NCBI GenBank assembly: GCA_018608565.1
Contig: JABAZT010000021.1
Location: 2,892 to 40,357, forward strand
Length of the DNA stretch: 37,466 nucleotides
Direction: 5' to 3'
Source: Candidatus Altimarinota bacterium
Lineage (GTDB): Bacteria > Patescibacteriota > Gracilibacteria > UBA4473
The notes under the pieces were generated by a model. That model worked only from the letters and a program-made list of their open reading frames with translations, was not told the origin of the DNA and ran no database searches. Of this stretch, positions 17,402 to 20,100 are shown in pieces; positions within the stretch are counted from its first letter, which is position 1; every line of letters begins with the position of its first letter. The translations under genes were made by a program, and so were the position numbers.

Positions 17402-17426
17402 CTTTTATCTTGAATTAACGCATTTG
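17398..17426 (+). promoter_or_regulatory. Possible promoter of the orphan gene at 17435
   Basis: TTGACT (17398-17403) overlaps the gpmI stop codon. After 17 bases a poor -10 (CATTTG, 17421-17426) ends 8 bases before the ATG at 17435. The spacing fits the leaderless pattern, but the -10 match is weak. Confidence 0.3.
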
Positions 17427-17434
17427 TGTGCCAC

Positions 17435-18148
17435 ATGGTTTACACAGTGCCTTCTTCACTCGATTCAATACAGGATGTCCGATGGGCCAGAAAATCTACA
17501 GATGAAATTCTTGTAAATTGGAAGGATATTTGTGACAATGATTTCCATGAACAGAACGAAGATGCTGAGACCTTCGACTGTATTGAAGTGTGTCCACATC
17601 GACCTAAAAGTGGTTTATGTGCGCACCCCAATCATCAGGGAAGTTTGAGAAAAGGTCGTTTGGATCCTTATTACACCTTTAACTCCAAACAAAAACTATT
17701 AGATATTGTGACGCTTTTAGTGGAAAAAGAAAAATTTAAGGATGATCTAATATTGAATAATGCCGAACAACTGTACGGATATAATTCACTAGCAGATGGT
17801 ATTAAAGCCTTTAAAGCGAGAGGGCTAAGGACAATTGATCCATCGGAGGATATTAAACCTAAGAATTCTATCCTAACCTCATCGGGAAACTTTGTTCCAC
17901 AATTCGAAGATAAACTTCAATTTTTGCTCTATCGATGCTGGATGATCGTGGACGAACCTTCTCAGGAAGAGGTATTTGAAGCACTTTATAATCAGATAAA
18001 GTACAGCCTTTTTGCTCGTATATATTTACTCAAACAAAGAGTATTAGAAGCGCTCGATGAAATTGAAAAAGAAATGTTACAAACACCTCAGCCCCAACCA
18101 ATAGAACCTGATTGGACAACTTATCGTAATGACATGCTATGCCCTTAG
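17435..18148 (+). CDS. Hypothetical protein with an N-terminal Cys/His cluster
   Basis: The protein has 237 residues from the ATG at 17435; a GTG at 17426 would add three. No family is recognised. Around residues 45-65 it has C-x3-C-P-H and then C-A-H-P-N-H, a spacing that could bind zinc. The rest is mainly helical and charged (VEKEKFKDDLILN, LKQRVLEALDEIEKEML) with a Pro/Gln-rich tail. There is no signal peptide or membrane helix. It sits between gpmI and the thrS leader and ends 10 bases before the thrS promoter. Confidence 0.75.
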   Translation: MVYTVPSSLDSIQDVRWARKSTDEILVNWKDICDNDFHEQNEDAETFDCIEVCPHRPKSGLCAHPNHQGSLRKGRLDPYYTFNSKQKLLDIVTLLVEKEKFKDDLILNNAEQLYGYNSLADGIKAFKARGLRTIDPSEDIKPKNSILTSSGNFVPQFEDKLQFLLYRCWMIVDEPSQEEVFEALYNQIKYSLFARIYLLKQRVLEALDEIEKEMLQTPQPQPIEPDWTTYRNDMLCP

Positions 18149-18157
18149 AGCTCTTCG

Positions 18158-18185
18158 TTGACATTTTATTGAGCCCCAATATATT
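18158..18185 (+). promoter_or_regulatory. Promoter of the thrS attenuator transcript
   Basis: A perfect TTGACA (18158-18163), a 16-base spacer and TATATT (18180-18185). Transcription should begin around 18191-18193, a few bases before the leader peptide ATG at 18196. Confidence 0.7.
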
Positions 18186-18195
18186 GAATCATGAA

Positions 18196-18237
18196 ATGAA
18201 AAGCACAACGACGACTACCACAACAACGACCGAATAA
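18196..18237 (+). CDS. Threonine leader peptide (attenuation of thrS)
   Basis: A 13-codon frame reads MKSTTTTTTTTTE and stops at TAA. It contains nine consecutive threonine codons using all four codon types (ACA, ACG, ACT, ACC). It lies directly after a strong promoter and directly before two alternative hairpins and thrS. This is the structure of an amino-acid-sensing leader peptide: ribosomes stall on it when charged Thr-tRNA is scarce. The use of mixed codons makes a simple nucleotide repeat unlikely. An overlapping ATG-AAA-TGA at 18191 is out of frame. Confidence 0.88.
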   Translation: MKSTTTTTTTTTE

Positions 18238-18242
18238 CATCG

Positions 18243-18272
18243 GAGGTTTTAGTGCAAGTTGCTCAAGACCTC
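18243..18272 (+). promoter_or_regulatory. Antiterminator hairpin of the thrS attenuator
   Basis: GAGGTTTT (18243-18250) can pair with AAGACCTC (18265-18272) over 8 bp, counting one G-U pair, with a 14-base loop. It starts 6 bases after the leader stop codon, so a ribosome sitting at the stop would mask its 5' arm, while a ribosome stalled on the Thr codons would leave it free. Its 3' arm is the 5' arm of the terminator, so the two cannot form together. Confidence 0.75.
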
Positions 18273-18289
18273 GACTCGGAGGTTTTTTT
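18265..18289 (+). terminator. Attenuator terminator upstream of thrS
   Basis: AAGACCTC (18265-18272) pairs with GAGGTTTT (18279-18286) around the loop GACTCG, followed by a run of T to 18289. The 3' arm repeats the sequence of the antiterminator's 5' arm exactly. It is 54 bases before the thrS start codon, so it would stop transcription before the gene when Thr-tRNA is plentiful. Confidence 0.8.
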
Positions 18290-18342
18290 ATTACCATAAT
18301 TTCAATCTTTCCCCCCTCTCTATCTCTCAATCTAAACTGTCT

Positions 18343-20100
18343 ATGTCAAAAAAACCTGCCGATTACGAAGGACGACGAAAACACACTGCCTCACATGTAA
18401 TGTCTGCGGCCGTCATGATGCTCTGGCCAGAGACAAAGCGTGGAGTTGGTCCTTGGACGGATGACTCATTTTATCAAGACTATGATTTTGGGGACGCAGA
18501 AGTTTCGGACAAGGATTTTAAGAAAATTCAGAAAAAAATGCGATGGATTGTGAATAAGAATTTCAAAGTAGAGAAGCGAATGCTCAAAGAAGCTGAAGCT
18601 CGATCTGCTTTTCCGGGAGATGAATATAAAGAAGAATTGATTGATGGGATTGTGGAACGAGGGGAAGATATTTCGTTTTATGATTTTGTGGATGAAACGG
18701 GGCGGATCGTTTATACAGATCTCTGTGCCGGTCCGCATGTGGAATCTACTGGAGAAATTGGTGTTTTTGAACTTACCAAGCTCGCAGGATCTTATTGGCG
18801 AGGCGATAGTGACAATGCAATGTTGACGAGGGTTTATGGAGTGGCGTTTGAAAATGAAGAGCTAATGGCTGAATACAAGCACTTCCTCGAGGAAGCCGCT
18901 AAACGAGATCATCGAAAACTCGGAAAAGAACTCGATCTCTTTACCTTTAGTGACAAGGTTGGTTCTGGGCTTCCACTCTTTACTCCAAAAGGAACGTTTC
19001 TCCGAGAAACTATCGCGAACACAATTCAAGATATTCAAGCAGAATTTGGATATGAACGAGTCAACATACCGCATATCTGCAAGAAAGATCTCTATGAAAC
19101 CTCTGGTCACTGGGATAAGTTCAAAGAAGATCTCTTTCACGTAAAAGGGAAGGGTGATACTGAATTTGTGATGAAGCCAATGAACTGTCCGCATCATACG
19201 CAGATCTATGCAAGTCAGATGCGATCGTACCGAGATCTTCCAATCCGATACTCGGAAGTAACCACTTGTTACCGAGATGAACAACCAGGAGAACTCCTAG
19301 GTCTTTCAAGAGTTCGGTCTCTGACACAGGACGATGGACATGTGTTTTGTCGGATTGATCAGGTAAAGGAAGAAGTAAAAAATATTACAAAAGTGGTGCA
19401 GGCGTTTTATGGAAAACTGGGAATGTACGAACCAGGACGATTTTGGGTATCGCTCTCTGTCCGTGATCCGCAAACTCCAGAAAAATATCTAGGAGATCCT
19501 GCAGAATGGGATAAGGCGGAACAATTCCTCAAGGAAGTTTCTGAGGAACAAGGACTTGATGCCGTAAAAACCGAGGGAGAGGCGGCGTTCTATGGTCCGA
19601 AGCTTGATTTCATGTTCAAGGATGCGATTGGTCGCGAATGGCAGCTGGCGACAGCTCAGATTGACTTCGTACAACCTGAACGATTTGGTCTGGAATATAT
19701 CAATGAAAAAGGAGAGAAAGATCGTCCGGTCATGATTCACCGAGCCATTGCTGGATCGTTGGAGCGGTTCTTGTCTGTCATTATTGAGCACTTCGCAGGA
19801 GCATTTCCGGCTTGGCTCTCTCCAATACAGGCTCATATCATACCAGTAAATGAAGCGCATGAGGCGTATGCGAAAGAACTTCAACAAAAGCTTAAATATG
19901 CTGGCGCACGGATAGAGTACTATGATGCGTCTGATAGTCTGGGGAAACGGATCCGAAATGCTCAGAAATCGAAAGTCCCGTTTTCGATTATTATCGGAGA
20001 TAATGAGGTTGAGTCTGGAAATCTAACGATTCGAAAATATGGAGAACAGAAGGATCAGAGCGTGAGTGAGGAAGAGTTTTTGGAACTACTTGAAAGTTAA
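18343..20100 (+). CDS. thrS: Threonyl-tRNA synthetase
   Basis: Charges tRNA-Thr with threonine. From the ATG at 18343 the protein has 585 residues and lacks the N-terminal TGS domain of the usual ~640-residue enzyme. The editing domain is present with HTASH (14-18) and CAGPH (128-132). The class II core has zinc ligands Cys282 (MNCPHH), His333 (DDGHVF) and His466 (MIHRAIAGS), and motif 2 is TCYRDEQPGELLGLSRVRS. The anticodon-binding domain is at the C-terminus. A TTG at 18259 is in frame but lies inside the attenuator hairpins, so it is rejected. Expression is probably controlled by the threonine attenuator at 18158-18289. Confidence 0.96.
   Translation: MSKKPADYEGRRKHTASHVMSAAVMMLWPETKRGVGPWTDDSFYQDYDFGDAEVSDKDFKKIQKKMRWIVNKNFKVEKRMLKEAEARSAFPGDEYKEELIDGIVERGEDISFYDFVDETGRIVYTDLCAGPHVESTGEIGVFELTKLAGSYWRGDSDNAMLTRVYGVAFENEELMAEYKHFLEEAAKRDHRKLGKELDLFTFSDKVGSGLPLFTPKGTFLRETIANTIQDIQAEFGYERVNIPHICKKDLYETSGHWDKFKEDLFHVKGKGDTEFVMKPMNCPHHTQIYASQMRSYRDLPIRYSEVTTCYRDEQPGELLGLSRVRSLTQDDGHVFCRIDQVKEEVKNITKVVQAFYGKLGMYEPGRFWVSLSVRDPQTPEKYLGDPAEWDKAEQFLKEVSEEQGLDAVKTEGEAAFYGPKLDFMFKDAIGREWQLATAQIDFVQPERFGLEYINEKGEKDRPVMIHRAIAGSLERFLSVIIEHFAGAFPAWLSPIQAHIIPVNEAHEAYAKELQQKLKYAGARIEYYDASDSLGKRIRNAQKSKVPFSIIIGDNEVESGNLTIRKYGEQKDQSVSEEEFLELLES

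Follow-up and report, generated by a model that had tools for sequence, protein, structure and literature searches.

A threonine-rich leader peptide and a predicted transcription attenuator in front of thrS in Gracilibacteria-like Patescibacteria

The 37,466-nucleotide stretch of DNA that was analyzed (hereafter, the window) carries a short reading frame dominated by threonine codons a short distance upstream of thrS, the gene for threonyl-tRNA synthetase. This arrangement raises the question of whether the frame senses the supply of charged tRNA-Thr and passes that information on to thrS. The answer that we favor, with a probability of roughly 0.93, is that a ribosome-mediated transcription attenuator controls thrS according to tRNA-Thr charging. 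The window organism is a Gracilibacteria-like member of the Patescibacteria whose assembly comprises 43 contigs totaling 1.66 Mb. In a public collection, the named genomes closest to it are three of Candidatus Gracilibacteria (68-70% ThrS identity). The genome of the window organism had been described as reduced and CPR-like; at this size, and with a thrC gene scoring above the family cut-off, it is not so reduced. TGA serves as a stop codon in three genes of the window, indicating that the organism uses the standard code. The thrS gene is monocistronic, and the next gene lies on the opposite strand.

The features that mark an attenuator are found at this locus (Table 1): a short translatable Thr-rich ORF near the predicted 5' end of the transcript, an intrinsic terminator between the leader and thrS, and a mutually exclusive antiterminator that uses the 5' arm of the terminator and is kept in relatives. 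The original prediction had placed here a TTGACA/TATATT promoter, a 13-codon frame with nine consecutive Thr codons, and two copies of GAGGTTTT competing for a single AAGACCTC. All of these are present where it placed them; the promoter hexamers match the consensus at 11 of 12 positions, and both helices covary. The stop codon does precede the first pairing element, at a spacing of 5 bases and not the 6 that had been given. Two features had been overlooked: the start codon nearly coincides with the predicted transcription start, and there is a third pairing, between the Thr-codon stretch and the segment 2 region. A run of (ACN)7 occurs at only one place in the entire genome.

Table 1. Features of the thrS locus, in window coordinates.
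Feature	Position	Strand	Basis
Gene upstream of the leader	17426..18148	+	
Sigma-70-type promoter, TTGACA-16-TATATT (TTGACA 18158-18163, 16-nt spacer, TATATT 18180-18185)	18158..18185	+	sequence; equivalent boxes in relatives
Predicted transcription start	18191..18192	+	spacing alone, ~6 nt past the -10 hexamer
Minimal frame ATG AAA TGA, sharing ATGA with the start of the leader	18191..18199	+	sequence
Leader peptide ORF MKSTTTTTTTTTE (MKST9E), 13 codons; ATG at 18196, stop TAA at 18235-18237	18196..18237	+	sequence; 13/18 family regions have a Thr-rich leader at this position
Nine consecutive Thr codons (ACA ACG ACG ACT ACC ACA ACA ACG ACC), putative sensor	18205..18231	+	genome-unique run; Thr specificity
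1:2 hairpin, Thr codons 18210-18233 paired with 18240-18264	18210..18264	+	minimum-free-energy fold
Segment 2, GAGGTTTT, antiterminator 5' arm	18243..18250	+	sequence, linker shuffles, covariation
Segment 3, AAGACCTC, common to antiterminator and terminator	18265..18272	+	sequence, linker shuffles, covariation
Intrinsic terminator, followed by its T's (T-run at 18283-18289)	18265..18286	+	
Segment 4, GAGGTTTT (18279-18286), running into the T-tract	18279..18289	+	covariation, terminator analysis
thrS, threonyl-tRNA synthetase, ATG at 18343	18343..20100	+	Pfam; TIGR00418, 657 bits

The start codon lies 6-10 nt past the best -10 hexamer in 13 leaders of the window's family, a range within which the window's own ATG sits, and in most of these 13 leaders a TTGACN is found 15-17 nt further upstream of the -10. 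TTGACN/TANNNT boxes stand at equal distance before most leaders of the family, and most of them, not all, have promoter scores that reach significance on their own (L091, L095 and L106 are weak). None of the 13 leaders has a recognizable Shine-Dalgarno sequence. Given this position of the start codon and the lack of a Shine-Dalgarno sequence, the leader is probably read from a leaderless or nearly leaderless transcript. The minimal frame ATG AAA TGA starts at the predicted transcription start. It was not seen as a conserved feature, and it could be either a ribosome feeder for the leader or a product of chance.

In the mechanism that we propose, RNA polymerase would start almost at the start codon of the leader. 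When Thr-tRNA is plentiful, the ribosome would reach the stop codon and cover segment 2, whereupon segments 3 and 4 would pair and transcription would end near 18289. When Thr-tRNA is scarce, a ribosome stalled in the Thr run would mask segment 1, and the resulting 2:3 pairing would block the terminator and allow thrS to be transcribed. Were translation absent, segment 2 would be taken up by the Thr codons, leaving the terminator to form. The predicted fold of the leader RNA, which combines the 1:2 hairpin with the terminator, has z = -3.4 relative to dinucleotide shuffles, and because the Thr-codon stretch pairs with 18240-18264, the untranslated leader is also predicted to take the terminating form. 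The 1:2 hairpin is found in most relatives, where a test that randomized synonymous Thr codons gave it modest support beyond the codon constraint (Fisher p 0.004).

We computed the fold at each ribosome position with a model that gives equilibrium values for the RNA left free by the ribosome and assumes a 12-nt ribosome overhang. For the window, the modeled terminator probability is 1.00 with no ribosome, 0.67 with a ribosome stalled at the first Thr codon, 0.05 in mid-run, 0.98 at the last such codon, and 1.00 with the ribosome at the stop. The corresponding means for 17 leaders are 0.61, 0.30, 0.26, 0.66, and 0.99, and stalling at the last Thr codon often yields the terminator in this model. 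Within the model, the way in which ribosome position decides the hairpin follows the classical logic of attenuation. Conservation, covariation and the fold model thus support, as a predicted mechanism, the earlier proposal that a ribosome at the stop codon favors the terminator and that stalling on Thr codons favors readthrough.

For the antiterminator, we compared the pairing of the linker (last Thr codon to terminator) with the 5' arm of the terminator to that of shuffled linkers in 22 leaders. The real linker beats its shuffles at p < 0.05 in 21 of the 22 (Fisher p about 2e-29); the exception, L119, is close to L120 but is without a stretch of the linker. Restricting the test to leaders outside the window's own family gives a Fisher p of about 8e-13, and the window's antiterminator pairing alone gives a shuffle p of 0.013. 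In most of the 22 leaders, the stop codon lies 28-33 nt before segment 3, a distance that suits the masking of segment 2 by a terminating ribosome. Among 17 sequences, and on registers set by hand on the helix cores, which biases the count upward, the antiterminator (2:3) and terminator (3:4) helices have changes on both sides at 7/7 pairs. Covariation on these registers is 0.87 and 0.82 against a shuffled mean of 0.28, about threefold, and sliding the partners by one column destroys the signal. Registers were set by hand because MAFFT did not align segment 3 across all of the f1 leaders; the linker-shuffle test is free of this bias.

Our family sample consisted of 20 genomes with 18 informative thrS upstream regions, window included, and a search at the level of the order gave the same 20 genomes. 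A Thr-rich leader precedes thrS in 13 of the 18 regions, with peptides such as VRNITTTTTTTHP, MKNTTTTTTTITE, MINVTATTTTT, VKTIATTTTTYTD, and MFVSCTCTTTRTTG. The residues other than Thr vary within the family, whereas the pairings are kept, and such divergence accords better with a sensor than with a functional peptide. A recognizable attenuator is missing in 5 of the 18 regions; L094, L097, L100 and L101 lack a Thr-rich leader, and L096 holds at most a leader remnant.

The leaders are specific for threonine. We scanned 108 thrS upstream regions for short ORFs in which four or more residues in a stretch of eight are identical and which have a terminator 8-60 nt past the stop. Such an ORF was found for Thr in 33 regions (a mechanical count that includes L177, which lies far from thrS and is outside the family leader list), for Leu in 9, and for any other residue in 3 or fewer. 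When five identical residues in eight were called for, Thr still gave 27 regions and no other residue gave more than 1. Neither the antisense strand nor three shuffles of the 108 regions yielded a single Thr ORF with terminator. Within the window's family, cognate leaders were absent before trpS (20 regions), ileS (16), and pheS (18). Likewise, targeted loci in the window organism's own genome (proS, serS, hisS/glyS-like, thrC, and pheS, the last with a partly masked upstream region) have no leader.

In the class as a whole, we detected thrS in 270 of 288 genomes. Seven families besides that of the window have Thr leaders with attenuator hairpins downstream: f2 (MKHIFTIIKTTPTTP), f5 (MHVLTTTATTTAR in L202; MSQRATTTTTTTTSR in L205, the latter read by eye), f6 (MNTVSTTSTTTTTLLSPEVV), f10 (MSYSTTTTTTTTTD, MKQLRTFTTTTTTMCQLW and others), f14 (MDLAQLVTTTTTIF and others), f15 (MFHIIITTTGTITTQ), and f22 (MAKLRTNTTTTRPDTREES, plus weaker ones). 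Related genomes had been named as the place to look for the Thr run and for both pairings with compensatory changes, and these recur in eight families of the class. In f10, f14 and f22, many thrS genes contain an in-frame TGA, as would be expected if they use the UGA=Gly code that occurs in part of the Gracilibacteria-like group. The alignment of ThrS proteins of these same three families to the window protein often begins only near residue 93-128, indicating that a different ThrS N-terminus also sits behind the same type of leader.

Other thrS genes carry T-boxes instead. A covariance model detects them in f2 (L149, E 8e-8), f11 (L150, E 1e-7), and f23 (L148), and a motif search adds f9 (L153, L210); those of L148-L150 were recovered only by a permissive covariance search and are missed at the Rfam gathering score. 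The T-boxes before Patescibacteria thrS (L148, L149, L150, L015, L019, L023, L024) score 24-53 bits, below the RF00230 gathering score of 93, so standard annotation misses them. Patescibacteria that do not belong to the class contributed 72 thrS regions, of which none has a Thr leader with terminator and 20 have a T-box motif. Weak Thr-containing ORFs at L032, L037, L051, L059 and L089 were dropped from consideration, as they have no terminator at the right distance.

These results bear on several other readings of the locus. The hairpin might simply terminate the upstream gene and the Thr run might be due to chance, and indeed a same-strand gene ends at 18148 and the terminator is of the intrinsic type. 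A promoter intervenes between the end of that gene and the hairpin, however, and the Thr run is the only one of its kind in the genome, belonging to a leader that recurs before thrS together with both of its covarying pairings; we regard this reading as very improbable. A T-box reading uncharged tRNA-Thr directly has in its favor that T-boxes precede thrS in related families (L149, L150), but neither an RF00230 match nor the GGTGGAACC motif was found in the window or in the attenuator-bearing family, and the leader RNA of the window is only ~100 nt long. Of the alternatives, we give this one the least credence.

Two further readings keep the conserved region but assign it another role. In one, ThrRS itself would use the leader region as its operator and the Thr frame would be incidental, as in the autoregulation known for E. 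coli thrS and mentioned in PMC2965389. What is conserved, however, is a translatable Thr frame that ends 28-33 nt before segment 3 and an exchange of antiterminator and terminator, and the sequences of the pairings change freely, as those of a protein-binding site would not. Repression of E. coli thrS needs the N-terminal domains of ThrRS, and the E. coli operator is an anticodon-like hairpin at the ribosome-binding site that is bound by a TGS-bearing enzyme. In contrast, the window ThrS has SAD, class II core and anticodon-binding domains, and a Pfam search of it gave no match to TGS. We regard a ThrRS operator as highly unlikely. In the other reading, a small Thr-rich peptide acts in trans and the terminator is incidental or partial; S. 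meliloti peTrpL is a precedent for a trans-acting leader peptide (PMC7298713). Apart from Thr, though, it is the pairings and not the peptide sequence that are conserved in the family, leaving a trans-acting peptide with very little probability.

The favored reading, attenuation by a translated Thr leader, is of a known kind. The leader of the E. coli thr operon (thrL) likewise encodes a Thr-rich peptide and has an alternative antiterminator and terminator; the predicted switch of the window differs in that it would control an aminoacyl-tRNA synthetase gene and not biosynthesis, that a Thr run alone suffices, and that the start is probably leaderless or nearly so. The window has no match to Rfam Thr_leader at the gathering score, nor any other Rfam match. 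A leader peptide controls pheST in E. coli, and this attenuator (pheM) likewise places a cognate-amino-acid leader on a synthetase gene; the window differs in amino acid and taxon, a sequence relation having been checked through Rfam only.

Synthetase leaders are also described outside the Proteobacteria, for other amino acids and in other phyla than that of the window: leuS and trpS are predicted leader-peptide targets in Streptomyces (PMC1262725), and His leaders precede hisS paralogues in Bacillus, in a study that also covers the exchange of T-boxes and leader peptides (PMC2965389). A Thr leader on thrS had been said to appear unusual, with no description known. It is indeed a little-described target, but a weak proposal exists, since a leaderless thrL-thrS attenuator is listed for Streptomyces lividans TK24, with an 18-residue peptide that holds two Thr and without a clear terminator (PMC8079986); in the window there are nine Thr along with both a terminator and an antiterminator, and the arrangement is conserved across the class. 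Leaderless leaders thus have precedents in the Actinobacteria, both there and in mycobacterial polycysteine short ORFs (Canestrari 2020, as cited in PMC13236596), in which a single-amino-acid run in a leaderless frame likewise serves as sensor. The amino acid there is cysteine, and obvious terminators are absent for actinobacterial cys leaders (PMC1262725).

We found no leader peptides for Patescibacteria in the literature within reach of our search, which took in few subscription papers. We consider it likely that this is the first ribosome-mediated attenuator of the Patescibacteria, a class-wide and probably leaderless Thr-leader switch on thrS, spanning standard-code genomes and families with in-frame UGA, and replaced by T-boxes in sister families. 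What would be new is the class-wide thrS target and a phylum seemingly without a prior description. Very little is known of gene regulation in Patescibacteria, and a conserved attenuator offers a concrete regulatory circuit. If the reading is correct, transcription and translation would be tightly coupled in these uncultivated bacteria, and two unrelated sensors of tRNA charging would have been exchanged repeatedly at one gene. Leader peptide and T-box would then form a natural comparison of tRNA-charging sensing in one class and at one gene.

Some leaders depart from the common pattern. In one genus of the window's family (L096, L099, L102), the attenuator appears to be decaying, with fewer Thr codons and a degraded terminator; L099 and L102 keep the antiterminator and have a terminator without T-run or stem. 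Ahead of the Thr run, the f14 leaders (L141, L179-L181, L183-L186, L189, L190) have in common an N-terminal motif of the type M-x-LA-x-L-[VE]-T, which may be kept because its codons form the 1:2 hairpin. Finally, the leader of L161 (MVALLVTSIVTTTSFK) is poorer in Thr, has a clear antiterminator and terminator, and lies ~600 nt before thrS. This leader precedes a response-regulator-like ORF, an arrangement that suggests a two-gene operon behind the leader.
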